A stretch of DNA of 64,000 nt from assembly GCF_010499255.1 (NCBI RefSeq), contig NZ_JAAGRN010000005.1, forward strand, positions 124,001 through 188,000. The letters are read 5' to 3'. This document shows, piece after piece, positions 3,639 to 49,149 of the stretch; within the stretch, counting starts at the first letter, position 1; every line of letters begins with the position of its first letter. The notes under the pieces were generated by a model, which was given only the letters and a program-made list of their open reading frames with translations, ran no database searches and was not told the origin of the DNA. The translations under genes were made by a program, and so were the position numbers. Source of the DNA: Sheuella amnicola. GTDB lineage: Bacteria; Pseudomonadota; Gammaproteobacteria; Burkholderiales; Burkholderiaceae_B.

Positions 3639-4415
3639 ATGACTAAATTCAATAATTGGATCACCTGCCCGCATCCCGAACCCAATGCTCAAGTCAGGCT
3701 ATTTTGCTTGCCTTTTGCTGGAGGCGGCGCCTCAATATATCGCCCTTGGGGAAAGTTACTTGGCAGCGAGATCGAAGTCTGCCCTATTCAGCTCCCGGGG
3801 CGTGAAAATCGTTTCAGCGAGACACCGATCAAACAGGCTCAAGCGATGGCACAATCGCTCGCCAATCAAATTCAGCTTTACTCGAATAAACCATTTTTCA
3901 TTTATGGCCACAGTATGGGAGCGCTTCTTGCGTTCGAACTTGCTCGCGCCCTGCAGGAAAATGGCATGGACATGCCTCAAGGCATCTTTTTAGCTGCCCA
4001 CCGCGCCGCCCATCTGCCCAGAAAGCGCGAAGCGCTTTATGCCCTGCCTGACGATCAGTTCATTGATCGCCTGAAACGGTTTGGCGGTTTTCCCCAGGAG
4101 GTGCTTGATAGCAAGGAATTGCTGGCTTTCTTGATGCCAACGCTAAAGGCTGACTTCACACTTTGCGACACTTATCAGTTTCAATCCGGCACAGTATTAC
4201 AGTGTCCGTTGCATCTTCTCGCCGGCAACGATGATATCGAAGCGTCTCCCGATGTCGTTGAGCCCTGGAGCCAACATACTGCTGACGTGGCAAAACTGCA
4301 TGTACTTTCAGCAGGGCATTTTTTCCTTCGCACCCATCAGGACGAGCTGATTCAGATTTTGAAAAAAGTCATCTTGCCTGCAACCGAGAATGAATTAGCC
4401 AACATTCATGCCTGA
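3639..4415 (+). CDS. Type II (editing) thioesterase of the PKS/NRPS cluster
   Basis: A 258-residue alpha/beta hydrolase of the GrsT/SrfAD family. Family members free carrier proteins blocked by wrong or stalled acyl groups. Visible features are the N-terminal FCLPFAGGGAS segment, the LPGREN motif, the nucleophile elbow GHSMG with Ser92 (codon 3912-3914), an Asp in AGNDD and the C-terminal His of SAGHFF, giving the usual Ser-Asp-His triad. The length is normal for the family. The ATG lies 5 bp after the stop of the upstream PKS, and the 3' end overlaps the next PKS by 8 bp, so the gene is translationally tied to the assembly line. It is separate from the chain-releasing TE at the end of the last synthetase. 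An editing role is inferred from family and position. Confidence 0.93.
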   Translation: MTKFNNWITCPHPEPNAQVRLFCLPFAGGGASIYRPWGKLLGSEIEVCPIQLPGRENRFSETPIKQAQAMAQSLANQIQLYSNKPFFIYGHSMGALLAFELARALQENGMDMPQGIFLAAHRAAHLPRKREALYALPDDQFIDRLKRFGGFPQEVLDSKELLAFLMPTLKADFTLCDTYQFQSGTVLQCPLHLLAGNDDIEASPDVVEPWSQHTADVAKLHVLSAGHFFLRTHQDELIQILKKVILPATENELANIHA

Positions 4416-6937: not shown

Positions 6938-9900
6938 ATGACGCGTCATCAACAAGTACTCAATAAATTGTGCGAATTATTCTCATCGCTTTTACGTATT
7001 TCCGTAGAAGAGATTGACGTGCATGCTCAATTAGTCGAAATGGGTGCGGACTCGCTCGTTCTTGTTTCTGGCGTAAGCGTGATCGAAGATCATTTCGGCG
7101 TCAAAATTGAAATACGACAATTTTTCGAAGAAATCACCAGTCTGGATGCCATTGCAACCTATCTTGAATCCAGATCGAACGCATTATTGGATGGCTCCGT
7201 AAACCACTCGGAAACACAAACCACCACACCAATACCCGCACCGGTAGTTTTAACTAATACAGCCACACTTTCGGCTCCAGCCAACTCTATACCACCGACC
7301 GCACCGATACAGCTGCCGGTCATACCGACCGGTATATCGTCTGATCCGGAACAAATGGATGCCATCGGTCAACTCATCTTTGCTCAGACTCAACTCATGG
7401 CCCAGCAACTGGCTATGCTCAGTGGTGCTCAGGTCACTCAACACATACCGGTTCAACCATCCCCGCCGGTCGAGAGTAATATTTCGCCCTCCCCGCGTCA
7501 AAGCCCGATCGCACCAAAACCACCCGAACAAGAGGACCGCTCCTCTCCATTACGCGCATTAAATGCCCCCATCAATCCCAATGCAAATAGTGGCCTATCT
7601 GAACAGCAAAGCAAGCATCTAGCGAATTTAATCGAGAGATTTCAAGCACGTACTGCCAAATCCAAAGAGTTGGCACAAGCGTGTCGTCCAACTTTGGCCG
7701 ACAGCCGGGCCAGCATAGGATTCCGCTTTTCGACAAAAGAAATTCTGTATCCCATTACCGGTGTGGAATCAACCGGCTCGCGTCTTCGTGACATCGATGG
7801 TAATGAATACGTTGACCTGACGATGGGCTTTGGTGTTTTATTGTTCGGCAGTCGCCCCGAACATATGAAAGGCGTTCTGGAAGCTGAAATCAACCAGGGG
7901 TTTCAGCTTGGCCCCCGTTCCGAACATATGCTTGAAATCTCGAAACTATTCACCGAGATGACGGGCCACGAACGTGTTGCCTTTACCAATTCCGGTACCG
8001 AGGCCATCATGATTGCCCTTCGATTGGCTCGCGCCGCCACAGGCCGAGACAAAATCGTCATTTTTGATCGTGCCTACAATGGCCATTCCGATGGCACGTT
8101 GGCGAAAACAACGCGCGGAGCCCAGGGCGAGCTGATATCCGAACCAATTGCACCCGGCGTACCTGCCAATGTCGCCAAAGATGTCATCGTTCTGGATTAT
8201 GGCGATCCGGAAGCACTCAACACAATTCGCAATCATGCTCATGAACTTGCAGCTGTTCTGGTTGAACCAGTTCAAAGCCGAAGACTGGATTTGCAACCCG
8301 TTGAATTTTTACGTGAATTGCGCAAAATCACAGAGCAAACAGATGTCGCACTGATTTTCGATGAAATGGTGAGTGGTTTCCGTGCCCATCCTGCGGGCGT
8401 TCAGGGATTATGGGACATTAAAGCCGACATTGCCACCTACGGAAAAATCGTCGGCGGCGGCACACCTGTTGGTGCAGTGGCCGGCAGCGCCAGGTATCTC
8501 GACGGAATTGATGGAGGAATGTGGCAATACGGTGATGCCTCGTATCCTTCCGCTAAACGCACGTATTTTGGCGGAACTTTTTGCCAGCATCCATTCTCGA
8601 TGGCGGCCTGCCTTGCAACCTTGCGCCACATGAAAGCACAAGGACCAGCTCTTCAAGCAAATCTGAATGCAAGAACTGCGGCATTCGCCAAAAGAATGAA
8701 TGACTACTTCGAAGAAGAAGGCCTCAGCATTCGAGTCGTTTATTTCGCTTCCACATTTGGCTTCAAATTTTCCGGAAATATTGAACTCTTTTTCTATCAC
8801 CTTCTGTTGAAGGGTGTCTATATTTGGGAATGGCGCGCATGCTTCCTTTCCACGGCACATACGGACGCAGATATCGACTTCGTTGTCCAGGCAATCAAAG
8901 AAACCATTGAAGAAATGAGGGAAGGCGGTTTCTTGCCTGCGCGCGGCAATAAATCTACTCATCCAAGTCACGTAAGCAATAACAATACAACCACAACGGT
9001 CAGTCCGGCTGGTTCCAACAAAAGCGTCGCAGTTGCTGCCAAGTCGGCAATGACTTCCTTACCCGCGCGTGTATTTTCAAACAAGCCGGTTGCACTCCAA
9101 TTCGGCATTTATTTTTTCGGCAATTACGATGCTGCTTTTTCGCAAGACAAGTATGACTTGCTCATGCAGGGCAGCTTGTATGCAGATAAAAATGGCTTTA
9201 ACGCAATCTGGTTGCCGGAACGTCACTTTGATAAGTTTGGCGGTTTTTCACCAAATCCTGCAGTCCTTGCTGCCGCGCTCGCTCGCGAAACCGAAAATAT
9301 CCAGTTGAGGGCAGGAAGTGTAGTGATGCCGTTACATCATCCACTTCGCGTCGCTGAGGAATGGTCTGTCGTGGATAATTTATCAAACGGTCGGGCCGGC
9401 GTGAGCTTTGCTGCCGGTTGGCACCCGAATGATTTTGCGCTTGCGCCGGATAACTTCAATAACAATCGCGAAATCACGTTTGACGGCATTGATAAAGTCA
9501 AGCGACTTTGGCGCGGAGAAAGCGTTGCATTCAGAGCCGGCAATAATAAACAGATACCGCTCAATATTTTCCCTCGTCCAAAACAGAATCATTTGCCGGC
9601 CTGGCTAACGGTTGTTGCAAATCCCGACACCTATCGCAAAGCGGGTGAAATGGGATTGGGCATTTTGACGAATCTTCTTGGTCAATCACTCGAAGAGTTG
9701 GAACAAAACATTGCGATCTATCGCCAGGCGCTGAAAGATCACGGTCACTCGCCTGATGTCGCCAGCGTTGCCATCTTGTTGCACACATACATTTGTGAAG
9801 ACAATGAAACGGCGGTTGAGCAAGCTAGAAAACCTATGAGTGCCTACTTGCTTTCAAGTCTATCCTTGTTTCAGAAAATGGCAGAGAGCATGCCGCCTCA

Positions 9901-12900
9901 TTTGCGTGATATCGATCGGGCGAGTGAAGAAGATAAAGCATTTATTATCGGCAAGGCGTATGAAAGATACATTGCCACGCGCGCACTGATCGGTTCGCCG
10001 GACCATTGCCGTCCAATTGTCGAACGCTTGATTGCAATGGGTGTCACTGAAATTTCCTGTTTCGTCGATTTTGGCATTGACGCTCATCTGGTTATTCAAA
10101 ATCTTCCTCAAATCAAGGCATTCAAGGACTCGTTTCTGACAAAACAAGTCAGTTCAGATTCTTTCCCTCTTAGTGAAGCTCAGCAACAACTTTGGTTGAT
10201 CGCAAAATTGCATGCCGATGGAAATCGCGCATATAACGATCCTGGCTGTATTGTGATCGAAGGGGACCTGAATCAATCCCTGCTTAAAGCCGCTGTGCAG
10301 CAAGTCATTGATCGTCATGAGTCGTTGCGAACCCGCATCGCAGATGATGGGCAGTCTCAAACCGTCATGCCCGCGTTCGAAATAGGGCTTGAATGCATCG
10401 ATTTGACTCGTGAAGACAATCCTGAAGATGCCGCCCAGCAGTGGATGGTCAAGCAGTCGTCTATCACCCGCGACTTGGCGTTTGATGCATTATTTGAACC
10501 AACACTTCTCAAAATCGCCCCTCAACGACACATCCTCTTCGTTTACGGCCACCATATCATTAGTGACGGCCCGTCCATGGGAACAGTCATTCAGGAAATT
10601 TGTAGGCTATACGAGGCAGCGAAAACCGGCCGTCAGGATAAATTACCGCCGGTGGTTCAATATAGAGACTTCATCAGATGGCATGCGCAACATAAGAACT
10701 CGCCATCAATGCTTGCTCATGAAGCCTACTGGCTCAAGCAATTCGAAACGTCTATTCCCGCGCTAGAGTTGCCCACTGACCGGACAAGGCCGGAAATCAA
10801 AACATATCGAGGAAACCGCATTAGAAAGGTCATGCCGCAAAATCTTGCGCAAAGACTAAGGAACACTGCAAAAGAGCAAGGGTCAACGATGTTCATGCTG
10901 CTCTTTGCGGCATATTCTGCTTTACTGCACAGAATAAGCGGACAAGAACGCCTAGTAATCGGCGCACCCTACTCTGGCCGTGGAATTGATGGTGCTCAGG
11001 GACTTGTCGGTTATGGCATTCATCTATTGCCCGTCATCAGCACAATTCATGATGGTTCCTTTGCCGATCATCTTTCGCAAATTAAAAACACGTTATTAAA
11101 TGCGTATTCGCATCAGGACTACCCTTTTTCACGATTGATCGACAAAATTGTTGTTCAGAGAGACCCTGGTAGATCACCGCTAGTGTCAACCATATTCAAT
11201 CTGGAAAGGCTTCCGCAAGCTCAACCGGTCGCAGATTTGCTGGTCTCCCCTTATCAGCAACCTATTACGTATACGCGCGTTGAGCTGACTTTCACAGTCA
11301 ATCTTCTTGGCAATGAAATCATTCTTGAGTGCGACTACAACACGGATCTATTCGATCAGGATCGCATGCATAAGGTGCTGGATAGCTATGAAAGTATTCT
11401 TGATGCGATCTGCACTGACATCCACGCCAATGTCATTCGACTTCCATTAGTCAATCAAGCTGAAAGTGAACGACAACTTAAGAATTGGAGCGCCGGGTCC
11501 GCTGCACTTTCACCCACATGCTTTCACAGTGCATTTGAAGACCAGGTACGACTTCAACCTGATCGGCCGGCACTGATCGAATACAACCAGAAGGGCAACA
11601 CACTTACCTACGATCAACTGAATCGTCGCGCAAATCAACTGGCCAGAAGGCTTCGCGAAATGGGTATTCGGCCTGAAGACCGGGTCGGAGTCTGTTTGCC
11701 TCGCTCAAATGACATGGTCATTTCGATGCTGGCCATCCTAAAGGCTGGTGCTGCTTATGTGCCGATGGATCCATCCTACCCTTCGGCAAGGCTGGATTTT
11801 CTGGTGCGAGACGCACAAGTTTCGCTACTGATCGGCAACAAAGACTCTCTGAATCAAATCGGCACAACCGCCATTGCCACTTTTGACATTGAGAAAGAGC
11901 AGGCAAAAACCCTAGTCGAGGCCGAGGACAATCTTGATAACCTCGCAGTACCTGCAAACCTCGCTTACGTGATTTACACCTCGGGTTCGACTGGTACACC
12001 GAAGGGTGCCATGATTACCCACGAAGGCTTTATGAATTACCTCACTTGGGCTGTTCAAGAATACGAGGCCAAATCAGGTGATGGTTCACCCGTGCTTGGA
12101 TCGATTGGGTTCGATGCCACAATCACTAGTATTTTCGTTCCTCTTCTAGCTGGCAATCAGGTCGTTCTTCTTCCTGAAGGCGCGGAACTCGAGGCGATTC
12201 AAGCGTTGACCAATTCACTCTATAAATATAGCTTCATCAAACTGACACCCGCTCATCTTGAAGCGCTCAACACATTAAGGGCCCAAAATCCCGAGGCTGA
12301 TCCTGAACTGGCTAAATATCTCATTCTGGGTGGTGAAGCCCTATCCGGCGCATCTCTTGATCCATGGTTCGACCATACTCAAACGCTTGGCATTAATGAA
12401 TATGGACCGACAGAAACCGTTGTGGGATGTTGCACTTTCACGGCCAGAGATCGTCTGACAGGTTCCGTTCCTATTGGCAAACCCATTCAAGGCACTCAAC
12501 TTTATGTTCTTGATTCACATATGAATCAAGTTCCGCCGGGAGTCGATGGCGAACTATATATTGGCGGTGCGGGTGTCGCACGTGGTTACCTTGACCGTCC
12601 AGGCCAAACCGCAGCTGTTTTCGTACCCAATCCATTCGGCTCGCAAATGGGTACGCCGGGAGATCGGCTCTACAAAACCGGGGATCGCGTTCGTTATCTC
12701 GCTGATGGGTCACTCGTATTTCTGGGCAGGATGGATAACCAGATCAAACTCAATGGATTCCGAATCGAGCCCGGCGAGATTGAAGCGGCGATTGTCGATC
12801 AGCAAGATGTACGAGAAGCGGTCGTCATGTTGATTAAAGATGCCAACAATCAATCCAGATTAATTGCCTATCTCACGGCTGATGATCAGAAATCAATTGA

Positions 12901-13423
12901 TATTTTGAACTTGAAAGAAGCATTACGCCGGGAACTTCCTGCACATATGATTCCATCCATGTTTACCGTTGTAGATGAAATGCCTTTGACCACACACGGC
13001 AAAGTGGATCGTAGTGCGCTGCCTGCTCCTGACTTCTCCACTTTTGAATCGAGTCAGCTCGATCATGCTCCATCTTCGGATATCGAGGAAAAGATCGCAG
13101 CCGCCTGGCGCAATACGCTATCGATGAACAAAGTCGGTATTCACCAGAACTTTTTTGATATTGGCGGCAATTCAATTCTTCTGCTTCAGGTATTCAAGCA
13201 ACTTGAACCAATCCTGCCTGCCGGCTTCCTTGTGGTTGATCTCTTTCGTTTTCCCACAATTGCCAGCCTGGCCGAACGATTGGCGCACCCACCCGAAAAG
13301 CGAAATCAGGAATCGGCTGACATTGGCTCACGCGCAAGTCTGCAACGCGCCGCAGCCATGAATCAAGCCAATCGTCAGCGTGCATTAAAAACAGCGGCTA
13401 AACCACGTCGGAAAACCACATAG
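6938..13423 (+). CDS. Hybrid PKS/NRPS: ACP-aminotransferase-LLM-C-A-PCP
   Basis: 2161 residues; the ATG follows a good AGGA site. Order: ACP (Ser39), a Pro/Thr-rich linker (about 80-225), a PLP aminotransferase of the glutamate-semialdehyde type (about 245-665, Schiff-base Lys503 in YGKIVGGG), a luciferase-like flavin monooxygenase (about 715-1065), a condensation domain (HHIISDG, second His at 1206), an adenylation domain (about 1520-2020, YTSGSTGTPKG) and a PCP (Ser2079, GGNS). The ACP-AMT-monooxygenase order matches the microginin/puwainaphycin type, where a beta-keto thioester is aminated and the alpha carbon hydroxylated. The by-eye A-domain code is D-A-T-K-I-G-E-V-G, closest to the Asn code DLTKxGEVG. 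So this protein should make a 2-hydroxy-3-amino acyl unit and join it to Asn. The domain order is certain. The hydroxylation position and Asn call are inference by analogy. Confidence 0.95.
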   Translation: MTRHQQVLNKLCELFSSLLRISVEEIDVHAQLVEMGADSLVLVSGVSVIEDHFGVKIEIRQFFEEITSLDAIATYLESRSNALLDGSVNHSETQTTTPIPAPVVLTNTATLSAPANSIPPTAPIQLPVIPTGISSDPEQMDAIGQLIFAQTQLMAQQLAMLSGAQVTQHIPVQPSPPVESNISPSPRQSPIAPKPPEQEDRSSPLRALNAPINPNANSGLSEQQSKHLANLIERFQARTAKSKELAQACRPTLADSRASIGFRFSTKEILYPITGVESTGSRLRDIDGNEYVDLTMGFGVLLFGSRPEHMKGVLEAEINQGFQLGPRSEHMLEISKLFTEMTGHERVAFTNSGTEAIMIALRLARAATGRDKIVIFDRAYNGHSDGTLAKTTRGAQGELISEPIAPGVPANVAKDVIVLDYGDPEALNTIRNHAHELAAVLVEPVQSRRLDLQPVEFLRELRKITEQTDVALIFDEMVSGFRAHPAGVQGLWDIKADIATYGKIVGGGTPVGAVAGSARYLDGIDGGMWQYGDASYPSAKRTYFGGTFCQHPFSMAACLATLRHMKAQGPALQANLNARTAAFAKRMNDYFEEEGLSIRVVYFASTFGFKFSGNIELFFYHLLLKGVYIWEWRACFLSTAHTDADIDFVVQAIKETIEEMREGGFLPARGNKSTHPSHVSNNNTTTTVSPAGSNKSVAVAAKSAMTSLPARVFSNKPVALQFGIYFFGNYDAAFSQDKYDLLMQGSLYADKNGFNAIWLPERHFDKFGGFSPNPAVLAAALARETENIQLRAGSVVMPLHHPLRVAEEWSVVDNLSNGRAGVSFAAGWHPNDFALAPDNFNNNREITFDGIDKVKRLWRGESVAFRAGNNKQIPLNIFPRPKQNHLPAWLTVVANPDTYRKAGEMGLGILTNLLGQSLEELEQNIAIYRQALKDHGHSPDVASVAILLHTYICEDNETAVEQARKPMSAYLLSSLSLFQKMAESMPPHLRDIDRASEEDKAFIIGKAYERYIATRALIGSPDHCRPIVERLIAMGVTEISCFVDFGIDAHLVIQNLPQIKAFKDSFLTKQVSSDSFPLSEAQQQLWLIAKLHADGNRAYNDPGCIVIEGDLNQSLLKAAVQQVIDRHESLRTRIADDGQSQTVMPAFEIGLECIDLTREDNPEDAAQQWMVKQSSITRDLAFDALFEPTLLKIAPQRHILFVYGHHIISDGPSMGTVIQEICRLYEAAKTGRQDKLPPVVQYRDFIRWHAQHKNSPSMLAHEAYWLKQFETSIPALELPTDRTRPEIKTYRGNRIRKVMPQNLAQRLRNTAKEQGSTMFMLLFAAYSALLHRISGQERLVIGAPYSGRGIDGAQGLVGYGIHLLPVISTIHDGSFADHLSQIKNTLLNAYSHQDYPFSRLIDKIVVQRDPGRSPLVSTIFNLERLPQAQPVADLLVSPYQQPITYTRVELTFTVNLLGNEIILECDYNTDLFDQDRMHKVLDSYESILDAICTDIHANVIRLPLVNQAESERQLKNWSAGSAALSPTCFHSAFEDQVRLQPDRPALIEYNQKGNTLTYDQLNRRANQLARRLREMGIRPEDRVGVCLPRSNDMVISMLAILKAGAAYVPMDPSYPSARLDFLVRDAQVSLLIGNKDSLNQIGTTAIATFDIEKEQAKTLVEAEDNLDNLAVPANLAYVIYTSGSTGTPKGAMITHEGFMNYLTWAVQEYEAKSGDGSPVLGSIGFDATITSIFVPLLAGNQVVLLPEGAELEAIQALTNSLYKYSFIKLTPAHLEALNTLRAQNPEADPELAKYLILGGEALSGASLDPWFDHTQTLGINEYGPTETVVGCCTFTARDRLTGSVPIGKPIQGTQLYVLDSHMNQVPPGVDGELYIGGAGVARGYLDRPGQTAAVFVPNPFGSQMGTPGDRLYKTGDRVRYLADGSLVFLGRMDNQIKLNGFRIEPGEIEAAIVDQQDVREAVVMLIKDANNQSRLIAYLTADDQKSIDILNLKEALRRELPAHMIPSMFTVVDEMPLTTHGKVDRSALPAPDFSTFESSQLDHAPSSDIEEKIAAAWRNTLSMNKVGIHQNFFDIGGNSILLLQVFKQLEPILPAGFLVVDLFRFPTIASLAERLAHPPEKRNQESADIGSRASLQRAAAMNQANRQRALKTAAKPRRKTT

Positions 13424-13445: not shown

Positions 13446-16400
13446 GTGAATCAGGAACAAGATAATCAAGATCTCGTGGATTACATCGCGATTATCGGCA
13501 TGTCGACCCGACTGCCTGGGGCGCCCAATTTGAAGGCCTATTGGGAATTGCTGCGTGATGGGCGAGAAGCCATCATCTCATCGACTAAGGAGGAGCTGGC
13601 TGCAAACGGCTATCCGGAAGACTTGATCAACAATCCAAACATGATTTCCGCCAGAGGCTTTCTTGCGGATGCGGATATGTTCGATGCTTCTTTTTTTGGC
13701 ATATCGCCTCGCGAAGCTGAACTGGTGGATCCGCAGCATAGAGTCATGCTGGAATGCGCCTGGGAAGCCATGGAGCATGCCGGTTATGAACCGTCCTCCT
13801 ATCCTGGTCGCGTCGCCATCCTGACCAGCGCCGGAATGAACACCTATCTGGCGTTCAACATCATGACTCACCCCGGCTTGATTGAAGAGATTGGTGGATT
13901 TCAACTGTCAATTTATAACGACAAGGATTTTGTTCCGACGCGTATCGCATACAGCATGAATACGCATGGTCCGGCCATTGATATAGGCACAGCATGTTCA
14001 TCATCGCTTGTCGGGGTCCACATGGCATGCCAGCAACTGCTCACATATCAAGCAGACATGGTGCTAGTCGGCGGCGTGACCGTGCATTTTCCGCAACATA
14101 ACGCCTACCTTCACGAAGGTGGGTCCGCATATTCACCGGATGGCCATTGCCGTCCCTTTGACGCCACGCCAAGCGGCCTGGTGGATGGCAATGGTGCGGC
14201 ATGCGTCGTTTTGAAACGACTGAGCGAGGCGATTGAGGATGGCGACCATATTCACGCCATTATTCGCGGTTCAGCCATCAACAACGATGGATCCGACAAA
14301 ATTGGATATTCAGCTCCATCGATTGAAGGTCAATCAGAGGTGATTCTTCAGGCGCAGGCTGCTGCAGGAGTGCAAGGTGCAGATATTACCTATATCGAAG
14401 CACATGGCACAGCCACGCCTCTCGGTGATCCGATTGAAGTTGCCGCATTGACACAAGCTTTTCGCGACTCGACTGATGCAAAGTCATATTGCGGAATTGG
14501 TTCGGTCAAGTCGAATATCGGACACGTGGACAAGGCAGCAGGGCTCGCGGGCCTGATTAAAACTGTCCTTTCTCTTGAAAACGAGCAATTAGCTCCTAAT
14601 CTTCACTGGAAGGCGCCCAATCCCAAACTCGATCTACCAAATACCCCGTTCTATGTCGTCGATAAGCTTAAAGAATGGAAACGCGTCGAGAATAAACCCA
14701 GATTTGCCGGCATCAGCTCATTCGGAGTCGGTGGAACGAACTCTCACGCCATACTTGAAGAGGCTCCAATTCGTCCTGACGGCTCGCCATCCAGGCCGTC
14801 AAAATTAATCCTTTTATCTGCACGAACAGAAACCGCACTCGCGACATATGCTAAAAATCTTGAACAATATTTGTCTCAAGAACCAAGCATCGATTTGGCC
14901 GATGTCGCATACACATTACAGGTAGGTCGTAAGAAATTCGCCCATAGATTGGCCATTTCCTGCTCAACACCAGCTGAGGCCAGTGAAAAACTTCAATACG
15001 CAGCCTCCAGCTTTGTCGAACAAGACGCAACACATACGACCTTCATGTTCACCGGCCAGGGCAGTCAGTATGCCGGAATGGCAGAAGGTCTATATGCGAA
15101 TGAACCCGCATTCAAAGAGACCGTTGATATCTGCGCTGATATCCTCAAGCCGATGATTGGACGCGATGTCCGTGAATTTATTCTGACCGACATCAAGACT
15201 AAAGATCAGTGCCAGGAAGATCTTCGCAATACTTGCTTTGCGCAGCCCGCTTTATTTGTCGTTGAATACGCCATCGCAAAGCTCTGGATAAGCTGGGGAG
15301 TAAAGCCCTCCGCAATGATCGGCCATAGTCTTGGCGAATATGTTGCTGCGTGCATTTCAGGTGTTATCGGCCTTGAAGATGCATTGAAAATAGTCAGCGC
15401 AAGAAGTCGCCTGATGCAGAGCATGCCGACCGGCTCAATGATGGCGGTTTCACTGCCAGAAACTGAAGTTCAACAGTTACTCAAAGCCGAGGGCATTGAA
15501 CTTGATATCGCGGCAGTGAATGCAACTTCACTTTGCGTCGTATCCGGTGCGGATGACAAGATCAATGCATTGCGCGGCATTCTGGAAGGCCAATCCCGAC
15601 AGTGCCGGTTGCTGCACACTTCGCATGCTTTCCATTCTTCCATGATGGAGCCGATGCTTTCCGACTTTGCTCAAGTCCTCGCCTCCGCTAAGCTCAATGC
15701 ACCCGGCATTCCATATGTTTCGAACCTCACGGGAACTTGGATCACATCGCAGCAAGCCACAAGTCAACAATACTGGCTTGATCACCTTAGACACGCAGTG
15801 CGATTTGCAGATGGATTGAAAACCATCCTATCTAAAGACCCGCAATCAGTATTGCTTGAAGTCGGTCCGGGCAGAACGCTGACCTCACTTGCAAAAATGA
15901 TTCAAGCCTCCCAAGATGGCGGGGCGACCTATATTTCCAGCCTCCCCCCGGCCGAAGCAACCACTTCCGCAGAGGCTTTCCTGACTCAAAGTCTGGGGCA
16001 GCTGTGGATGTCAGGCATATCAATTGACTGGGATGCTTATTATGCCGGGCAACGCAGATTGCGCCAGGCATTACCGACTTACCCATTTGAAAAATCTAAA
16101 TTCTGGATCGAGCCACTCAGTCCGGGCAAGTCCATAAACCATGCCTTAGATCCATCAAGGCGGAAGAATCCTGAGGAATGGTTCTACACCCCGGCACTTG
16201 TGACCAGCCAGCTCACCCTTGCCCAAGAAGAAAGTCCCAAATCGATTGCAGTCATTTCCAATGAGCGTTTGCTTGCAACCGAATTGCAAAAATTATTAGC
16301 TGATCGAGGAAATTGTGTTTCGCTCATATCCCCTCAGTTGATCGGTGATGACACGTTTATAGAGTCATCAGATAAATTAATTTACATACCGGAACATACA

Positions 16401-17942
16401 GACGACGACCAGAGCATAGAATTACTGAACTTCATCCAGGCCATCAGGAAGGTTCGCTCAGACGATGAAATAGATTTAACCATCATTGTCAGCCATGCAT
16501 TGGCCCACGGACCTGAATCGAAGATCAATCCGCACATGGCCGCCTTTTATGGTGCATTTAACGCAATACGCTTTGAATGCCCCGACCTGACGGTCAGAAT
16601 GATTGACTGCGCCTTGCCGGATAACGCAAAGTCAACACAACGTTTGGCAAAAAAGGTTTGCAACGAATTGCGCAATCAGCTGTTGGAGCCTGTCGTTGTT
16701 TTGCGTGCCAATGGAAGATGGATTCCGGAATTGCAATCCATTCCGATGACCAAAAATAGCAAAACTCCTGGCTTGCTTCGCGAGCATGGCACATACGTAA
16801 TCATTGGCGGAGTATCTGACATTGGCATACTGTTCGGCATACAACTGGCAAAAATTTGTCAGGCAAATATTATCCTGACAACAAGCGATTCCGGGTTTGA
16901 GCTGGATAAATCGACTTTCAAGGATCGTATCGATCAAATTAGTGCATCAGGCGGCAAAGTCGTCACTAGGATCACTTCGGACCTCACCCCTGATGGATTC
17001 AAAAAAATCATTGAAGAGGGAGTTGCGTTGTTTGGAAATGTCAATGGCGTGATCGATGCAACTGACATGCATGCAATTAAGCCTATTCAATCGATTCAAA
17101 ACTTTGACTCAGACGCAGGAAAATCGTTTCTCAAAAGTACGGAATCGCATCTCAGCATGCTAAAAACCGCCATCGATGGACAAGATCTCGATTTTTGCTT
17201 GATCATGTCATCTTTGACTGCACAGATTGGTGGAGTCGGACAATTCATCTCATCATCTGCAGCGGCTTATGTGCAAGCATTCTCGCATCAGGCCAATCAA
17301 ACATCCGAAACGCCCTGGATGGTTGCTCAATGGGATGCTTGGAAAGAAACCGACGAACCCGTTTCTGCTCGCACTCAGGACTACTCATTATCGCCAAGTG
17401 ATGGCGCGCAAGCATTTTCGCTACTGACGCTTCAGATCATTGCACCTTGTGTTGTCATTGCAACTAATCCACCGCAGTTGCGGGTGGGAACGCAGCAACG
17501 AGCCACAGATGAAGCCATCGGGCAGTCAACAAAATCTGAGCGCAGGTATGACAGGCCTCATCTCGCAAATCCATATGTCGCTCCACGCAATGAGCATGAG
17601 CAGGCCATATCGGAGATTTGGCAAAGCACACTGGCAATTAATCAGATCGGGGTTGACGACAACTTCTTCGATCTGGGTGGGCATTCACTACTTGGAGCTC
17701 AACTCACTGCCGAAATTCAACAAAAATTTAAAACGCCTGTCGACATGAGCATGCTCTTTTCGCATCCGACTGTCGCGGCCCTTAGCAAGGCATTGCTTCA
17801 GAATCAAGTAAGCGACAGCGACGAAGATTTACTTGCGCAACAACTTGATCAGCTCGAACAAATGTCAGATGAAGAGGTACAGGCGCTTCTTGAGCGTAAA
17901 GACCTGCCTGCGGCCCTCGCCAAAGCGCTTGGTTTAGCGTAA
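13446..17942 (+). CDS. PKS module KS-AT-KR(defective)-carrier
   Basis: 1498 residues with a GTG start behind AGGA. The KS has Cys184 (GTACSSS), His320 (EAHGTAT, where the usual form is EAHGTGT) and NIGH. The AT has GHSLGEY (Ser628) and HAFHSS, indicating malonyl-CoA. The region 1110-1330 is a ketoreductase fold with lost motifs: the nucleotide loop reads GGVSDIG, and at the position of GQANYAAAN it reads GQFISSSAA, so the catalytic Tyr is Ser1269 and the Asn is Ala1273. The Ser of the MSS motif remains. The carrier domain (Ser1414, GGHS) is PCP-like. A C-terminal acidic helix (about 1455-1498) is probably a docking element. The KS follows a PCP-terminated protein, so it should extend a peptidyl chain by malonate and leave the beta-keto group unreduced. 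Confidence 0.93.
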   Translation: MNQEQDNQDLVDYIAIIGMSTRLPGAPNLKAYWELLRDGREAIISSTKEELAANGYPEDLINNPNMISARGFLADADMFDASFFGISPREAELVDPQHRVMLECAWEAMEHAGYEPSSYPGRVAILTSAGMNTYLAFNIMTHPGLIEEIGGFQLSIYNDKDFVPTRIAYSMNTHGPAIDIGTACSSSLVGVHMACQQLLTYQADMVLVGGVTVHFPQHNAYLHEGGSAYSPDGHCRPFDATPSGLVDGNGAACVVLKRLSEAIEDGDHIHAIIRGSAINNDGSDKIGYSAPSIEGQSEVILQAQAAAGVQGADITYIEAHGTATPLGDPIEVAALTQAFRDSTDAKSYCGIGSVKSNIGHVDKAAGLAGLIKTVLSLENEQLAPNLHWKAPNPKLDLPNTPFYVVDKLKEWKRVENKPRFAGISSFGVGGTNSHAILEEAPIRPDGSPSRPSKLILLSARTETALATYAKNLEQYLSQEPSIDLADVAYTLQVGRKKFAHRLAISCSTPAEASEKLQYAASSFVEQDATHTTFMFTGQGSQYAGMAEGLYANEPAFKETVDICADILKPMIGRDVREFILTDIKTKDQCQEDLRNTCFAQPALFVVEYAIAKLWISWGVKPSAMIGHSLGEYVAACISGVIGLEDALKIVSARSRLMQSMPTGSMMAVSLPETEVQQLLKAEGIELDIAAVNATSLCVVSGADDKINALRGILEGQSRQCRLLHTSHAFHSSMMEPMLSDFAQVLASAKLNAPGIPYVSNLTGTWITSQQATSQQYWLDHLRHAVRFADGLKTILSKDPQSVLLEVGPGRTLTSLAKMIQASQDGGATYISSLPPAEATTSAEAFLTQSLGQLWMSGISIDWDAYYAGQRRLRQALPTYPFEKSKFWIEPLSPGKSINHALDPSRRKNPEEWFYTPALVTSQLTLAQEESPKSIAVISNERLLATELQKLLADRGNCVSLISPQLIGDDTFIESSDKLIYIPEHTDDDQSIELLNFIQAIRKVRSDDEIDLTIIVSHALAHGPESKINPHMAAFYGAFNAIRFECPDLTVRMIDCALPDNAKSTQRLAKKVCNELRNQLLEPVVVLRANGRWIPELQSIPMTKNSKTPGLLREHGTYVIIGGVSDIGILFGIQLAKICQANIILTTSDSGFELDKSTFKDRIDQISASGGKVVTRITSDLTPDGFKKIIEEGVALFGNVNGVIDATDMHAIKPIQSIQNFDSDAGKSFLKSTESHLSMLKTAIDGQDLDFCLIMSSLTAQIGGVGQFISSSAAAYVQAFSHQANQTSETPWMVAQWDAWKETDEPVSARTQDYSLSPSDGAQAFSLLTLQIIAPCVVIATNPPQLRVGTQQRATDEAIGQSTKSERRYDRPHLANPYVAPRNEHEQAISEIWQSTLAINQIGVDDNFFDLGGHSLLGAQLTAEIQQKFKTPVDMSMLFSHPTVAALSKALLQNQVSDSDEDLLAQQLDQLEQMSDEEVQALLERKDLPAALAKALGLA

Positions 17943-17983: not shown

Positions 17984-18187
17984 ATGTCTAACGAAAACAC
18001 TGAGGTTCAGTACATCGTCGTGATCAATCACGAAGAGCAATACTCTATCTGGCCCGACTTCAAAGCGATACCGAATGGTTGGCGCGATGCAGGATTTAGA
18101 GGTCTTAAGCAGGCCTGTTTGGATCACATCAACACTGTATGGACTGATATGCGTCCATTGAGCTTAAGACAAAAAATGAACGCCTGA
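17984..18187 (+). CDS. MbtH-like protein
   Basis: A 67-residue protein with the family's fixed residues: [10 protein letters not shown] near the N-terminus, the PxGW segment and the [10 protein letters not shown] tail. MbtH-like proteins bind NRPS adenylation domains and help them fold or work. It lies between the PKS module and the four-carrier NRPS block, 42 bp after the former, with a GGGAG-like ribosome site before its ATG. It probably serves one or more of the five adenylation domains in this window; which one cannot be told from sequence. The family call is very safe. Confidence 0.96.
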
Positions 18188-18225: not shown

Positions 18226-18513
18226 ATGAACAGTACAAAACCATATGAAGCACTAGTTAGAAAATGCTGGGATGATCCGGAATTTAAAGCCCGCTTGCTG
18301 AAAGACCCCCAAGCCGTTTTGCTTGAAGCTGGCTTGCCTATCCCTGCCGGCATCAAATCAATTACAGCCATTGAAAATAGTCCTCAACAATTAACCATTG
18401 TCATCCCTCCAAATCCGGCCGATATGCCTGATGAAAAGGAATTGATCGCCGGCGGATTTTTCGTTTTCACACGAGGCGGCTTTTCTTGCGACTTTATTGT
18501 CCATAATCGTTAA
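18226..18513 (+). CDS. NHLP-type (nitrile-hydratase leader) RiPP-precursor-like peptide
   Basis: 95 residues, ATG behind AGGA. Residues 1-60 match the NHLP leader pattern derived from nitrile hydratase alpha: CWDDPEFKARLLKDPQAVL, then an xGLPIPAGI-like turn and a beta segment ending in VIPP. An acidic helix DEKELIAGG follows, with a double glycine at 76-77 typical of cleavage by C39-type peptidases. The remainder, residues 78-95 (FFVFTRGGFSCDFIVHNR), would be an 18-residue core with one Thr, one Ser and one Cys. A second GG at 84-85 offers an alternative cut. No LanM, radical SAM, cyclodehydratase or C39 transporter gene is in the window. It sits 38 bp after the MbtH gene and 60 bp before a giant NRPS in the same direction, so it is probably co-transcribed with the assembly line. 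Family resemblance is good. Processing, and any link to the NRPS product, is unknown. Confidence 0.8.
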   Translation: MNSTKPYEALVRKCWDDPEFKARLLKDPQAVLLEAGLPIPAGIKSITAIENSPQQLTIVIPPNPADMPDEKELIAGGFFVFTRGGFSCDFIVHNR

Positions 18514-18573: not shown

Positions 18574-21500
18574 ATGAAGTCAGTTGCCGATAGGCTCGCC
18601 CATCTTTCCCCTGCTAAAAGAGCTTTGCTTCAACGTTTGCAGGCGCAAGAGCATTCGAATGATTTATCCGAAGTCATCACTCGCCATGAAGGTCAGAAGA
18701 CTGGGTTGCCTCTTTCCTCATCCCAGCAACGATTATGGTTTCTTGATCAACTTGAAGGAGCAAATGCGACATACAACATGCCGGTTGCTGTCCGCCTTGA
18801 GGGACATCTTGACGTCGAAAAGCTTGAACGCGTTTTCAAGGAAATTCTGAAACGGCATGAATCGATACGAACAAACTTCACCTCCATCAATGGGGAGCCT
18901 GTTCAGTCCGTTTCAGATCATGCGGGCTGGGAACTTGGAAAAATTGACATCTCGGATACCCCCGTTGATGACCAGCAAGCCCGCATATCGAGAATATCCG
19001 CAGCCGAAGCTCAGCTTCCTTTTAATCTTGCCAAAGATTGTCTATTGCGCGCCACGCTGATCAAAGTAGCCATAGATGTTCATATTATTTTGATCACGAT
19101 GCATCATATCGTCTCTGACGGATGGTCCATCGGCAATGTTTTATTGCGCGAATTAATCACGCTTTACTCGGATTTCACACAGGGTAAAGAATCTTCCCTT
19201 GAAGAACTACCAATTCAATACAGCGACTTCGCAATTTGGCAGCGAGAGTGGCTCAAAGGGGAAAATGTTTCCTCTCAATTGAATTACTGGACTAAACAGC
19301 TTGCGGGCATACCTGCTTTATTGGAATTTCCGACGGACCTGCCCCGGCCACCTGTTCAAAGCTTTAAGGGACAAGTCTATAACTTCACACTGGATAAGTC
19401 GCTCCTCGCAAAGCTCAAAGGATTAAGTCAAAAGTCAGGCGTCACTCTATTCATGACTCTCTTGGCTGGATTTTCCGCATTGCTTTCTCGATACAGCGGT
19501 CAGGATGATGTGCTGGTTGGATCGCCGATTGCGGGTCGAAATAGAAAGGAACTCGAACCTCTCATCGGTTTTTTTATTAACTCGCTTGTTTTCCGAACGA
19601 CTTTTCATCCGGAACTAACTGGAACAGAATTATTGCTGAACACCCGTCAGACATGCCTTGATGCGTTCAAGCATCAGGATGTGCCATTTGATCGCGTGGT
19701 CGAGACGATCAAGCCTGAGCGAAACCCCAGCTTTTCTCCCCTGTTTCAGGTGATGTTCATTCTTCAGACACAGAATGCTGAACGAAGTGATCTGACTGCC
19801 GGCGATGTCAAATTGACTACATTGCCGATAGATGCCGGCACATCCATGTTTGATTTCACGCTCAAGCTGGAAGAGCAAGGCGGTACACTTGAAGGCGAGT
19901 TTGAATACAACACGTCACTTTTTAAGCACGACACAATAAAACGCTTTGTTAATCATTACATCTGTTTGCTTGAAAATTTATCAAACAATCCAGACCAGAT
20001 TCTTTCCCAAATTCCGCTGATGCTCGATGATGAGCGTCAGCAAATTCTGGATGTTGTGAATCAAACCAACAGATCATTCAACTTTTCCGAAAACGTTCCG
20101 TCACTTTTTGCCAAACAGGCCGATCTTCGCCCCAATAGCATTGCCGTTCAGTGTGGCGATGAAGCACTGACATATTTTGAGTTGAATCGTCGAGCCACTC
20201 AGCTTGCCTTGCATCTGAAATCCCTTGGCGCCGGTACAGAGACACTCGTTGGTTTGTGCACCGAGCGCGGCATTCCGATGTTGGTCGGTTTACTTGGCAT
20301 TCTTAAAGCTGGTGCAGCTTATGTACCGCTGGATCCAAGTTATCCGAAAGATCGAATTGGCACAATGATAGAAAGCTCAGGCCTCAGATTACTGATCACC
20401 GAGGATGCCTGCCTGAATGCATTGCCTGACAGCACCTGTACGAACATACTGATTGACCAGCATTGGCCACTCATCGAGCAGGCATCCGGAGTGCTATCCG
20501 ATGCGTTTTTGCCTGATACCCTGGCCTATGTTATCTACACATCAGGTTCGACAGGAAAGCCCAAAGGGGTCCAGATCACTCATCGTGCATTGACAAACTT
20601 CTTGCTGACTATGCAAGAGCGTCCGGGCCTGACACATCAGGACGTATTACTGGCAGTGACAACCATATCTTTCGATATCGCCGGGCTTGAACTGTATTTG
20701 CCTCTCATTTCGGGGGCAAAAATCATATTGGCAAGTCGGGAAACCGCCATGGATGGTTTTGCTTTATTGGCAGCCATGCGGAATTCGAATGCGACTGTCA
20801 TGCAGGCCACGCCTGCAACTTGGCGAATGTTGATGCTGACGAATCCGAAAAATCTGGGAGTCAAGCGAATATTCTGCGGTGGTGAAGCTCTCGATGCGGA
20901 GCTTGCCTCTTTATTGCAGGAAATGAATGCCGAAATATGGAATCTGTATGGGCCAACCGAAACAACAATCTGGTCAACGGCTTATCACGTCAACGCCAAA
21001 TCGAACGATTCACTGGCATCAAGAAAATCGGCGGCGTCGATTGGTTCCCCCATCGGAAACACACGAGTCTATGTTCTGGATGAATTTCTGGAGCCTACGC
21101 CAATTGGCGTGCCGGGTGAACTCTATATAGGTGGGGCCGGGGTCAGTCGAGGTTATTTCAATCAAGCCGGATTAACCGCCGAACGGTTCATTCCAGATCC
21201 TTTTGGGAAAGGTGACAGCACCAGGCTCTATCGGACAGGGGATCGTTGTTATTTCAACGCTGAAGGTCAATTAATCTACTCAGGAAGAATCGACTTTCAA
21301 GTCAAGGTTCGAGGCTTTCGTATAGAGCTCGGTGAAATTGAATCGACACTTCTTCAACATGAAGCAGTTCAAAATGCTGTTGCCATAGTTAAAACCGATC
21401 AGGTGGATCAGGCCCAAATTGTCGCCTATGTTCAATTAGAACCAAACTGGACTCCTTCTAACGATCAGCATGAAGTGAACGATCGTCAAATCGATAAGTG

Positions 21501-24500
21501 GCAAACCGTTTGGAATGAAACATACAAAGCCAATCCTAAAAAGATCGAAGATGACCTGAGCGGCTGGTTGAGTACATACACCGGAAAATCCATTGAAAGA
21601 GCAGAAATGCTTCGATGGACTCAGGATACTGTTGATCGGATTCAAAAGCTCAAACCAACCAAAATCCTTGAGATTGGCTGCGGGACTGGTCTATTACTGA
21701 CTCGATTGGCGCCTCATGTCGAACACTACACAGGCGTCGACTTTTCGGCCAACGTTTTAGGAAATCTTGCTGCCCGCCTTGATCAGATGGGAATCGGCAA
21801 TGTCAATCTGGAGTGTCGTCAAGCAAATGCGCTTCCAGAAGAGTTCAATAGAAAATATGACACCGTCATTATTAACTCTGTTGCACAGTATTTTCCAAAT
21901 ATAGAATACTTGATCGATGTCCTGACCAAAGCCATAGATTCGATTTCGGATGGTGGACATTTATTTCTTGGTGACTTGCGGACCCAAGGCTTGCAAAGAA
22001 TTCAACATCTTTCTGTTGCTCAATTCCAGCACCCTGAAGAAACATCAAATCAAGAACTGCGCAGAATTGCGGATGCATCCGTTCAGCGTGAAGAAGAGCT
22101 TGTGATTGATTTGGAATTACTTGCGCTATTGAAATCAAGAATAAACCGCATCAAGAATATTGAAAGCATCATTAAATACAACTCCGATGACAATGAAATG
22201 AGCAAATTCCGCTCGGACGTTATCATTCACATCGGAAATGCTGAATCTAATCACGCTTCGACATCCGTAGAAATTCTGGACTATTTGAGTCTGGACATGG
22301 ATGAAGTTGGTCTGAAAGATTTATTATGCAATCGAAAGAGCAGTGTGATCATTCGCAACATGCCAAATACCAGGTTGCAAGATGATGCAATGTTGTTGGA
22401 TCGAGTTTATCCATCGCCTCAGCCACATCCAGATTCGACACGAGCAAGTCAGTCGAATCTAAATTCCATTTCGATTTCACGCCTCCTCGAAATCGGAACA
22501 GCTTGCGATTTTGAGGTTTTTATTGCCTTTTCATCGACAGACCCGGAACATCGGTTGGATGTGTATTTTGATTTTGAATCAAAACATTCCAGATTTGGCG
22601 TACCGATTGAAATCAGCTACCCCGATTTCAGTCCCGCAGGCAAAGTGATATCACGGTTGGCAAATCACCCCGATCAAGTGATACACAATAGAATATTAGT
22701 AAGCTCATTACGCACATTACTTCAGGAACATTTACCCGCGTACATGATCCCCTCGGCCATCGTGTGCGTGGATCAGATGCCCATGACACCGAATGGAAAA
22801 ATCGATCGCAAGGCCCTGCCTTCGCCCGATACGTTCGAACGCCAAGAAACCTACGTCGCGCCGCAGACTGAAGATGAGATTAAATTATGCGAAATCTGGT
22901 CCCAATTATTGGGCGCGCCCAAAGTAGGCGTGCATGACAACTTCTTCATGCTTGGCGGGCACTCGCTACTGGCGGTTCAAGTCATTTCGAAAATCAGGGA
23001 TGTTTTTTCGATTGAGCTTTCAATACAAGCGCTGTTTGACTCACCTACGATTGCACAACTGGCAAAACTGATCGAATCGAACTCTCATCAAGCGCAATCG
23101 ACAGCATCACCAATCACGCCAAGAGACACCTCTGATAGACGCTTTGCACCACTATCATTCTCGCAACAACGATTGTGGTTCCTGAGTCAACTTGAGGGAC
23201 TGGCATCGACTTATCTTATCTCCGGCGCAGTTCGCGTAAGAGGAAATCTCAATATTGAGATTTTGGAAGCCGTATTTACTGAAATCGTTCGGCGTCACGA
23301 ATCGCTGAGAACACGTTTTGTAGAAATCAACGGACATCCTCAAGCAGAAATACGACTGGCAAGTCCTTTTAAACTGACTCGGATTGACATCAGTCATCTT
23401 GAGGAAGCTTTAAAAATTCAACAAGAAAGTTTTCTCATCGCCCAAGAATCCAATCGACCTTTTGATCTAGCGGATGATCTGTTGTTCCGCGTCACTGTCA
23501 TCAAAACCTCTAGTGATCTGCATACGATGGTGATGTCTTTACATCACATAATTTCCGATGAGTGGTCGATGGCACTACTTCAGCAGGAAATTGCCGACCT
23601 ATATCGCGCTTACAGCCAGCACCAGCAATCACCTCTGACTGACCTAGCGATCCAATACGGAGACTTCGCGCATTGGCAAAGAGAATGGCTATCCAGTGAT
23701 CAAATCGAGCATCAGCTCGGTTACTGGTCTAACCATCTCGCGAATGCACCAGCGCTGCTCGAGCTGCCTACAGACTTTCCCAGACCCGCAGTTGCGCGGC
23801 ATATCGGCAAAACGCATACTTTTTCAATAAACCGAAATTCCGCAAACAGAATTCGACATCTTGCTCAAACGACCGGCTCAACCCTATTCATGACCATGCT
23901 GGCCGGTTGGGCATACCTACTAAGCAGACACGCCGGAACGAACGATATCGTCATTGGTTCACCCATGAGTAATCGTAATCGCTCCGAACTTGAAAAACTC
24001 ATCGGATTTTTTGTCAATACTATTCCTTTACGCTTTAACTTAGGCGGGAATCCTAGCGCTCGCACACTTTTGGAGCATGCACGCCATGTCTCTTTAGGAG
24101 CCTTTGCAAATCAGGATGTTCCTTTCGACTCTATCGTCGAAACAGTTAAGCCCGAGCGCAATTTGAGTTACACGCCGATATTTCAAGCCATGTTCGTGAT
24201 GCAAAACGCGCCGACTGCCGAACTTGCATTCAACGAGCTTGTTCTGGAGCCCATCAGGACAGAAACACTCGTCTCAAAATTTGATTTGACGCTGTCGGTT
24301 GAAGAAATCGATCACAATTTAATTTGCACTATCGAATACAGCACTGATCTTTTCAAGGATACGACGATTCAAAATCTGAGTGATCAGTATGCACACCTGC
24401 TGGACGAAATGACCGTTCATACAGACGCATCTCTTGCAAGCCTGTCGCTCATTTCACAATCAGCATGGAAAAAGCAGCAAGTTGAACTCTATCAGCCCGA

Positions 24501-27500
24501 GTCGGCATGGCTCGCTGATTGGGGCACCTCTTCTGTTCTTGAACTGTTCAATGAAGTCGTCAAAAGAGATCCGGAAAAAGTTGCGCTGACACATCTGGGC
24601 CGAGAACTGCGCTATAGCGAGCTAGACCATCTTTCGAATAGACTGGCTCACGCACTCAAACAACGCATAAGTTGCGATCAACCGGTCATTGGCCTGCATG
24701 CCGAACCCGATTTCAACATGATTATCGGAATGCTAGGGATTCTTAAGGCTGGAGCAGCCTACCTACCCCTTCTACCTGAAACGCCCGCTGAACGCATTCG
24801 GATGATGATCAACGAGACAAATGCACAATATGTCTTGAACGCAAATGCCGATCTGAATCTGGACAATCCAGGCTGTACTCAATTACTAATCGATGAATTA
24901 ATCGAAAATCAGGAAAACTCAAGCAAAGGTGCATGGAACATACATCCTTCGAGCCTTGCTTATGTTATCTATACCTCCGGATCTACCGGTCAACCTAAAG
25001 GCGTGATGGTCAGCCATCAAAATCTTGCATGCTCGACAAGTGCAAGATTGCGATACTACAAAATGAACTTCACAAGCCTGATCCTGTTGCAGCCCTTTTC
25101 TTTTGATGTGGCTACCGGAAATATTTTCTGGACATTGTGTTCGGGCGCGAACCTTCACCTCGAACCTAGATCACTTGCTCAGGATCCGCATCTCTTATTA
25201 CAAAAGATTCAAGAATATAAAAACTCGCATTTAGTGCTATTGCCTCTTTTGTACGGCCCGCTACTCGATTTAGCCAGCGCAGATGCTTTGTCATCCTTGC
25301 GCAATGTGATTGTGGGTGGCGAAAAGATGCCCATCGATTTAATTCAGAAACATTTTAAAATGTGTCCTGAATCTTCGCTGCATAATGAATACGGCCCTAC
25401 TGAAGCAACCGTCATGTGCTGTGCGTATGATGCAAATCAACCGGACAATCTGGACAAGATCGTTCCTATTGGCAAGCCCATCGCCGCAAGCAGAATCTAT
25501 CTGCTTGATCCTTACCTGAATCCTGTGCCTACAGGCATGCCCGGCGAACTTTGTATTGGCGGCCCGCAAGTTTCGCTAGGATATTTATCCCATCCTTCAC
25601 TGAGTGCCGATAAATTTATTCCAGACCCATTTGATGCTCAGCCTGGAAGCAGACTTTATCGCTCGGGTGATATTGCCCGAATGTTGCCGGATGGGAACAT
25701 TGAATTTGTCGGACGTGAAGATCAACAAGTCAAAATTCGCGGTTTCCGCGTTGAGCTTGGGGAAATTCAGGCAAAAATCAAATCATTTCCTTCCATCAAA
25801 GATTGTGTCGTTCTTGCCCTTGAGTTGGGCTCGAGCAAACGTCTGGTTACCTATGTCATTCCTGAGTCAAGCACATCATTTTCCGAAAAGGATTTAATCG
25901 CCTTCCTTTCGACTGAATTGCCCGAATACATGATACCCACCTCGTGTATTGCGCTTGAAGAGTTCCCCCTCACCAGCAACGGAAAGCTAGATCACCGGGC
26001 ATTACCTTCTCCCGATCAAACGATTCAAGCTCAAAACCTTGCCGCACCTGTTAACAGGATAGAAAGTGAACTGCTGGATATCTGGATGACGGTTCTAGGC
26101 ACCAAGCAGATCAGTGTTGAAGATAATTTCTTCACTCTGGGAGGTGATTCGATTTTAAGCATTCAGATCATCAGTCGGGCTAATCAGGCCGGATTCAGTC
26201 TCACCGTTAAACAACTGTTTCAGCATCAAACAATCAGAAAGCTTGCAACGTGCGTGAGAATGGGTCAAAGCGTTGCCGCAGACCAACAGCCGTACTTTGG
26301 ATCGTTTGATACAAGTCCGATTCAAAAGTGGTTTCTGGACGAGAATCCAGCTCACCCGGATCACTTTAACCAATCGCTATTTCTCGAAATCAATCCATCC
26401 ATCACGGATGATCAGCTCAAATCATCCATTCGAGCATTAGTGCATCATCACGATATGCTACGCGCCCGGTTTAATCGCGAATCAGATCTTGAATGGCAAG
26501 CTCGAATTTCGGATTCGATAGATGAGGACGCATTCACATCAGTCACAATGACTGCCCTGTCACAACAGGAGTGGTCCGCTGCGATTGACGATATAGCTAA
26601 TCAGGCTCAACAAAGCCTGAGTCTGTCGAATGGCCCCATTTGGCGCGTCATTCGATTCAAGATGCCGGCAGGAACATCCGATAAGCTGCTCTGGATTATC
26701 CATCACCTTGCCGTTGACGGTATTTCATGGCGCATTCTGCTCGAAGACCTTGAGGCTTGCCTGAGCCAGTCAGTCAACGCACAACAAATAGCATTGCCGT
26801 TTAAAACAAGCTCTTTTCCACTCTGGAGCAAAAAACTTCAGACTTATGCAGCTGACGACAAGAATGTTTCCGTCTTAAATTACTGGTTGAAAATGGGCTC
26901 AAGCCAGGCGCCTGAATTAAATCGGGATTTCGAAATTACCCATACAAACCAAAACGATCTGTCGACATTACAAACATTGACGACTGCCTTACCCGCTGAT
27001 CTCAGCCAAACAATCCTGACTGATGGGCTTAAAGCATTCCGGGCGCAAATCAACGATTTGCTACTCACCGCTCTGGCAAATACTTTTGAACAATGGACAG
27101 GGCACTCAAAGCTATTACTCACCCTGGAGGGCCATGGTAGAGAAGATCTGTTCAATGATGTTGATATTTCGAGAACTGTTGGATGGTTTACAAGCGGATT
27201 CCCTGTTCTTCTGGATCTGACCTCTACGCCATATACCGGTGATCATCAAATAGGCTCGAGGATTAATCAGGTTAAAAATACTCTGAGATCCATACCCGAT
27301 CACGGTGTGGGATTTGGCATTTTCAGACGACTGCATCCAGATCCTGAAATCCGCAAGCAACTTGCATATGGCGACATGCCTGAGCTTAGTTTTAACTATC
27401 TGGGACAGTTTAATAAACCACCCTCAAATCGCTATGTATTGGGTGAAGCCACAGAATCAGCCGGTCGCGAACAAGCCTTGACCGGAAAGAGAACTGCGCT

Positions 27501-49119: not shown

Positions 49120-49149
49120 TTGAACCGCCTACCGGCATTACACACACAG

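Follow-up and report, generated by a model that had tools for sequence, protein, structure and literature searches.

In Sheuella amnicola, a 95-residue protein with the leader fold of nitrile-hydratase-leader peptides (NHLPs) is encoded between an MbtH-like gene and an NRPS gene, within a PKS/NRPS cluster. On balance, the NHLP fold has probably been reused here as a small accessory protein of the PKS/NRPS line and would no longer be a cleavable leader. This reading is favoured because the tail behind the leader is conserved, the positions at which maturation enzymes dock are changed, C39 peptidases and YcaO proteins were not found in the genome, and the gene is attached to one type of NRPS. 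The homology of the leader is real, as judged from the sequence, and it is the RiPP-precursor function of the protein that is doubtful. A first-pass annotation had left two alternatives, maturation by distant enzymes or a reused leader fold, and the evidence leans to the second.

The gene and its cluster

The window, that is, the whole 64,000-nucleotide stretch of DNA analysed here (contig NZ_JAAGRN010000005.1, positions 124,001 to 188,000, forward strand), contains the following features.

4..3633, + strand: final AT-DH-KR-ACP part of a PKS that begins, with AMP-ligase-ACP-KS, just upstream of the window (domain scan)
3639..4415, + strand: stand-alone thioesterase (Pfam)
4408..6921, + strand: PKS, KS-AT, the AT match being partial (Pfam)
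6938..13423, + strand: ACP-aminotransferase-luciferase-like monooxygenase-C-A-PCP (domain scan)
13446..17942, + strand: PKS, KS-AT-KR-ACP (Pfam)
17984..18187, + strand: MbtH-like protein (PF03621, E 2.1e-22)
18226..18513, + strand: NHLP-fold protein, 95 aa, ATG start (open reading frame list, Pfam, TIGR03793; sole match in the genome)
18226..18456, + strand: NHLP leader domain, residues 1-77, ending in IAGG (TIGR03793 over residues 8-77, structure model, match to 8TB1)
18457..18510, + strand: 18-residue tail after AGG (kept in relatives, modelled as a beta-hairpin)
18574..30933, + strand: NRPS1, 4119 aa, 12,360 bases, C-A-MT-PCP-C-A-PCP-E-C-A-PCP (Pfam and motifs; E presumed)
30930..39602, + strand: NRPS2/PKS, 2890 aa, TubC_N docking domain, C-A-PCP-KS-AT-KR-ACP-TE (domain scan)

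The NHLP gene had been described as lying between MbtH and an NRPS gene of about 12 kb in one direction, and this arrangement holds: NRPS1 measures 12,360 bases and all three genes are on the + strand. Only 38 bases separate the NHLP gene from MbtH and 60 from NRPS1, and a search of 17800-18700 gave no terminator-like site (shuffled sequence mean, 1.2). The reverse strand of 18226-18513 is interrupted by stops.

To which family does the protein belong? Over residues 8-77 it scores 55.0 bits with the leader_NHLP model TIGR03793 (E 5.3e-15), which exceeds that model's curated threshold of 50.9 bits, and it matches Pfam NHase_alpha with E 6.4e-7. Family searches matched it to no enzyme or DNA-binding family other than the nitrile-hydratase-related leader. 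The profile search that the first-pass annotation had proposed thus confirms its reading of a nitrile-hydratase leader ending in AGG and followed by 18 residues with Thr, Ser and Cys (one of each after IAGG). Its term 'RiPP precursor-like peptide' is apt for the leader sequence and probably not for the function. Sequence and profile searches of the genome itself (G000) returned this single match.

In the structure model, the leader consists of helices 6-16, 18-26 and 28-34 and strands 47-52 and 55-60, with a Pro-rich linker. A fold search with VIA-align matched the leader domain to 8TB1; the rows below the proteusin and nitrile hydratase matches (for example pilins) were not taken as relatives. 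The tail is modelled as a beta-hairpin with strands 77-82 and 85-90, at a pLDDT of about 60-67 and from three sequences, so that the predicted hairpin is held with modest confidence. The C-terminal 29 residues matched no PDB chain at E 10.

The remainder of the cluster looks like a beta-amino-acyl lipopeptide line. Its starting AMP-ligase-ACP-KS-AT begins about 4 kb before the window (locus L111, 16071-20000) and runs in frame into the AT-DH-KR-ACP at the window's edge. From motifs that we take to be diagnostic, NRPS1 contains an E domain. The A domains of NRPS1 modules 1 and 3 and of NRPS2 presumably carry Gly-like codes, on our assumption of the anchor positions and code meanings, and that of the aminotransferase protein (6938..13423) an Asn-like code on the same kind of assumption; the code of NRPS1 module 2 was assigned to no amino acid. 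Nothing was seen to suggest that the peptide is attached to the NRPS product, and the idea was rejected because the line includes both a starter ligase and a thioesterase. Elsewhere in the window, two adjoining open reading frames at 51497-52909 (- strand) align with consecutive segments of a single sodium:solute symporter family profile, like one interrupted gene.

Relatives of the NHLP protein

Relatives were sought with the window protein (P0001) in 101 related genomes and with a profile (A2) in 32 genomes of the genus, 268 of the family, 399 of the order, 369 of the class and 109 of the order of genome G816. Four tail-bearing loci were found besides that of the window. Two of them, G010:C122 (L002) and G019 (L003), come from the same genus as the window organism and encode identical NHLP proteins from genes that differ at 4 nt; the third, G023, is also from the genus; and the fourth, L004, belongs to a MAG of a different order labelled 'Proteobacteria bacterium' (G816). 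The family thus has four distinct members. In the profile search the carriers amount to 4/32 genomes of the genus, including the window's own, and to the identical set of four among the 268 genomes of the family.

Three members (P0001-P0003) score 55.0, 58.1 and 60.9 bits on TIGR03793, all above 50.9, while the shortened P0004 falls below this cut-off with 27.3 bits. The AGG leader end is kept in all four.

Outside G000, G010, G019, G023 and G816, no open frame covering the tail occurs among the matches listed at E 0.001 in any of the taxonomic sets. Three matches run partly or mostly beyond the GG: that of G055 (3-83) has its own core, YYSFTTNRSPW; that of G875 (8-86) has one stop inside; and that of G058 (14-92) has three stops (E 9.7e-4). 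Most of the remaining matches are either ordinary NHLPs or frames of about 200-300 aa aligned to positions 9-60, two of which among those read (L011 and L013) contain CTLCSC. A scan of genome contigs returned four loci, three with the tail and a fourth (L005) that is a nitrile-hydratase-like frame with CTLCSC. Searches of viral contigs and of phages gave no relative, and none of the six matching plasmid records covered 80% of the query.

A separate NHLP-domain protein (L020, 9496-9786, - strand, G028:C40) scores 61.8 bits on TIGR03793, has no Gly-Gly end, and is encoded near a choloylglycine-hydrolase-family gene and a cupin gene; it is possibly another NHLP that is not a precursor.

Linkage to one type of NRPS

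The gene order around the NHLP gene is stable. It directly follows MbtH in 5/5 genomes, its start codon lying within the end of the MbtH gene in G023, and NRPS1 comes directly after it except in L004, where a 389-aa amidohydrolase-type gene intervenes. The contigs of the G010:C122 and G019 clusters end after the start of NRPS1.

How specific is this association? The genus has 27 MbtH places in 23 of its 32 genomes, examined to about 1.5 kb on each side, and the NHLP gene adjoins four of them, which are exactly those with both an NRPS1-type N-terminus and a full-length MbtH. The N-termini at these four places are 56-100% identical to that of the window. At four other MbtH places there are only distant condensation-domain matches (20-25%). 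Counting all loci of the NRPS1 type, the NHLP gene is present at five of six: in full length in the window, G010:C122, G019 and L004, and in short form in G023. The sixth, G010:C94 (L108, around position 8788), has an NRPS of this type (56%) and no NHLP; its MbtH gene breaks off after some 34 residues, and the NRPS start overlaps the stop of the cut gene. Homologous clusters therefore retain the gene at G010:C122, G019 and L004, and a related NRPS locus does without it. Since contig C122 of G010 encodes a full MbtH and an NHLP protein, the C94 NRPS could be supplied with both in trans, or the assembly could be mixed.

The tree of the first NRPS module is (L004,((G023, G010:C94),(window, G019))), with ingroup supports of 0.986-1.0. 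In the simplest history, the NHLP gene is ancestral to the NRPS1 type, with later shortening in G023 and loss from the C94 locus. Between the window and L004, identity is 66% for the NHLP protein, 55% for MbtH and 46% for the first NRPS module; between the window and G010 the values are 62%, 82% and 62%, the module in the latter case being taken from G019.

In L004, the frame at the place of NRPS1 has its motifs ordered as in NRPS1; it is followed by a 2788-aa open reading frame with C, A, AT and carrier motifs ordered as in NRPS2 (2890 aa), and then by a further assembly-line frame, all assigned from motifs. The G023 cluster is rearranged: the 15 kb read downstream of NRPS1 contain no open reading frame of at least 700 aa, no A or KS motif and no NRPS2. 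On the other side of the G023 cluster (L017/L018, G023:C12, about 46400-54200), some 8 kb of other genes separate MbtH from the nearest upstream PKS/NRPS-sized frames.

Conservation of the tail and the leader

A precursor peptide was expected to show a variable core after the GG, and this expectation failed. The four distinct members share the tail consensus [FY]F[IV]F[ST]RGGFS[CF]DF[IV][VI]H. Identical tail positions number 12-15/16 in pairs of full-length members and 10-14/16 in pairs with G023, from few sequences; G019, a near-duplicate of G010, is omitted from these comparisons. The values for tail and leader are 12/16 and 45/77 for window-G010, 13/16 and 50/77 for window-L004, 15/16 and 46/78 for G010-L004, and 10/16 and 24/41 for window-G023.

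The same pattern is seen in the codons. For the pairs window-G010, window-L004, G010-L004 and window-G023, dN is 0.116, 0.084, 0.027 and 0.179 in the tail and 0.337, 0.319, 0.340 and 0.369 in the leader, with dS saturated or near-saturated throughout. The 16 tail codons show 10 synonymous changes and 1 non-synonymous change between G010 and L004, and 10 synonymous and 6 non-synonymous between the window and G023, whose residues differ at 6/16 positions. Across the three full-length members, invariant columns make up 12/16 of the tail and 37/77 of the leader (one-sided Fisher p 0.044), and conservative columns 16/16 and 52/77 (p 0.004). The tail's score of 12 is reached by 8 of 80 16-column windows, two of them wholly within the leader. 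On this sequence comparison the tail ranks with the best-conserved stretches of the protein, yet not uniquely so. An essential modified Cys was rejected as a general rule for the tail because G023 has Phe at that position.

Processing signals and maturation enzymes

According to passages in PMC6363468, C39 peptidases have a groove that receives the leader positions -4, -7 and -12, and passages in PMC12455567 and PMC10858898 describe an NHLP maturase that docks on helix 1 and on an L(X)4L motif spanning -12 to -7. The residues at -12/-7 in the four family members are D/K, T/A, L/S and L/S. Thus, the -12 Leu is kept in two of them and both positions are hydrophobic in none, compared with 14/14 among the other NHLPs read; position -4 is hydrophobic in 4/4. 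The count of 14 leaves out L048 and L041, which are not NHLP-like, L039, in which the GG is out of register and ELSDEELGTISGG stands further on, and also L038, L069, L070, L071, L073 and L076.

Which enzymes could process the peptide? No C39 peptidase was found in G000, G010, G019 or G023 (98.65, 82, 93 and 86% complete), and no YcaO in G000, by searches that recovered C39 in 8 and YcaO in 5 of 14 known genomes used as positive controls. The genome-wide search suggested by the first-pass annotation accordingly came back without C39 or YcaO in a 98.65%-complete genome. G816, the genome of L004, has one C39 in an NHLM-type exporter, on contig C144 and not on the NHLP contig; it scores 848.1 bits against a cut-off of 853.3, its frame being cut by the locus end. 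No NHLP was found on C144 (best 5.8 bits, E 0.13). The NHLM-type exporter genes there (L120, 5030-14339, - strand) adjoin a cNMP-binding gene and a gene for an AMP-ligase-PCP-condensation protein. A canonical NHLP in the same-family genome G055 lies within about 2 kb of NHLM ABC2, with ABC1 and HlyD adjoining.

The earlier statement that the window holds no such enzymes is upheld for the frames scanned: a Pfam scan of 34 open reading frames, taken from 113 overlapping frames of at least 80 aa plus the shorter MbtH frame, found no YcaO, lanthionine synthetase or C39 transporter. It needs one qualification. Just beyond the cluster, the frame at 41137-41583 (+ strand) resembles PqqE (E 1.4e-40) and corresponds to the C-terminal SPASM portion only; the sequence upstream showed no radical-SAM domain. 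This PqqE-type remnant, the only candidate among the window frames scanned, was rejected as a maturase because the catalytic domain is missing. No maturase was seen among 12 of the 18 upstream frames of L111.

What does the NHLP protein do?

A more specific form of the accessory reading can be put forward tentatively: the leader fold would be a stand-alone, uncleaved partner of the PKS/NRPS, a second helper beside MbtH, in which the former core has become a binding hairpin. That the protein stays uncleaved, and that NRPS1 is its likely target, as the gene order suggests, are both inferred. The helical domain, whose helix 1 is the maturase-docking face in other NHLPs, and the C-terminal hairpin might bind NRPS1, or NRPS1 together with MbtH. 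As a partner resembling MbtH, the protein might then assist the folding or the activation of the first Gly module, or position the carrier domain of that module; the operon would deliver it together with its target.

The main competing explanation is a genuine RiPP precursor whose core is conserved. Cleaved behind AGG by a protease other than C39 and possibly modified by enzymes encoded elsewhere, its tail would act as a second product, a signal or a partner of the lipopeptide. Some RiPP families do have conserved cores. The AGG end in 4/4 members, the Thr, Ser and Cys of the tail, TIGR03793 scores above the cut-off in 3/4 members and the NHLM-type C39 exporter of G816 are all features that such a precursor could have; the AGG end, the three tail residues and the exporter also count against the accessory reading. 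This explanation is nevertheless rather unlikely. It is weakened because the tail is conserved and modelled as a hairpin, -12/-7 are altered and C39 (in four genomes) and YcaO (in G000) are missing; the Phe of G023 in place of the tail Cys and the absence of a maturase among the frames scanned also speak against it.

The accessory reading is also weakened by the small set of four distinct proteins, by the two leader windows that equal the tail in conservation and by the 6/16 differences between the window and G023 tails. Two other observations sit uneasily with an accessory protein: the C94 NRPS of G010 has no NHLP, and the G023 copy lacks about half of the folded domain, a truncation that a structural partner should not tolerate unless this copy is decaying. 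The same observations, the shortening in G023 and the loss beside a truncated MbtH at C94, would suit a relic left over from an earlier RiPP cluster and retained passively in the operon, a very improbable reading because purifying selection acts on the tail across two orders (with dS saturated). A self-protection or regulatory protein, encoded with the synthetase and binding or sensing the lipopeptide or an intermediate, would fit the gene position and the stable tail; it is improbable, though less so than a relic, as the only family matched is the nitrile-hydratase-related leader, with no DNA-binding or enzyme family, and a gene placed between those of MbtH and NRPS1 suggests a role with the synthetase.

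If the accessory reading is correct, a RiPP precursor has been converted into a component of a non-ribosomal machine. Public records name NHLP genes 'RiPP precursor', and a conserved 'core' with PKS/NRPS neighbours would show that this label can mislead. Should binding to the synthetase prove true, the protein would join MbtH as a further class of small NRPS partner and could help such lipopeptide lines to work in other hosts.

Comparison with known systems

The open-licence PMC literature yielded no paper that links NHLPs with MbtH and nonribosomal peptides or proteusins with MbtH, and none on NHLM with a lipopeptide NRPS and an ABC transporter; a Brevibacterium genome comparison came up for nitrile hydratase, a leader peptide and MbtH. 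NHLP and proteusin precursors form the TIGR03793 family, as set out in passages of Haft et al. 2010 (PMC2887384). In contrast to these precursors, the family described here has a conserved instead of a variable tail and changed -12/-7 positions, and the window gene lies in a PKS/NRPS cluster in a genome with no C39 or YcaO found.

The leader domain shares a related fold with the nitrile hydratase alpha subunit (PF02979), whereas the 95-aa protein is without the CxLCSC metal site, seen as CTLCSC in L005.

In goadvionins and lipolanthines, a RiPP is linked to a fatty acid or a polyketide. As in those systems, a ribosomal peptide gene is found inside a PKS-type cluster; unlike in those systems, no joining or maturing enzyme was found, and the line is equipped with an AMP-ligase starter and a TE of its own.

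The NHLP protein shows no sequence relation to MbtH-like proteins (PF03621), which it does not match, its only Pfam match being NHase_alpha. Yet, like them, it is small and has its gene just ahead of one for an NRPS, and it is kept at five of six loci of this NRPS type.
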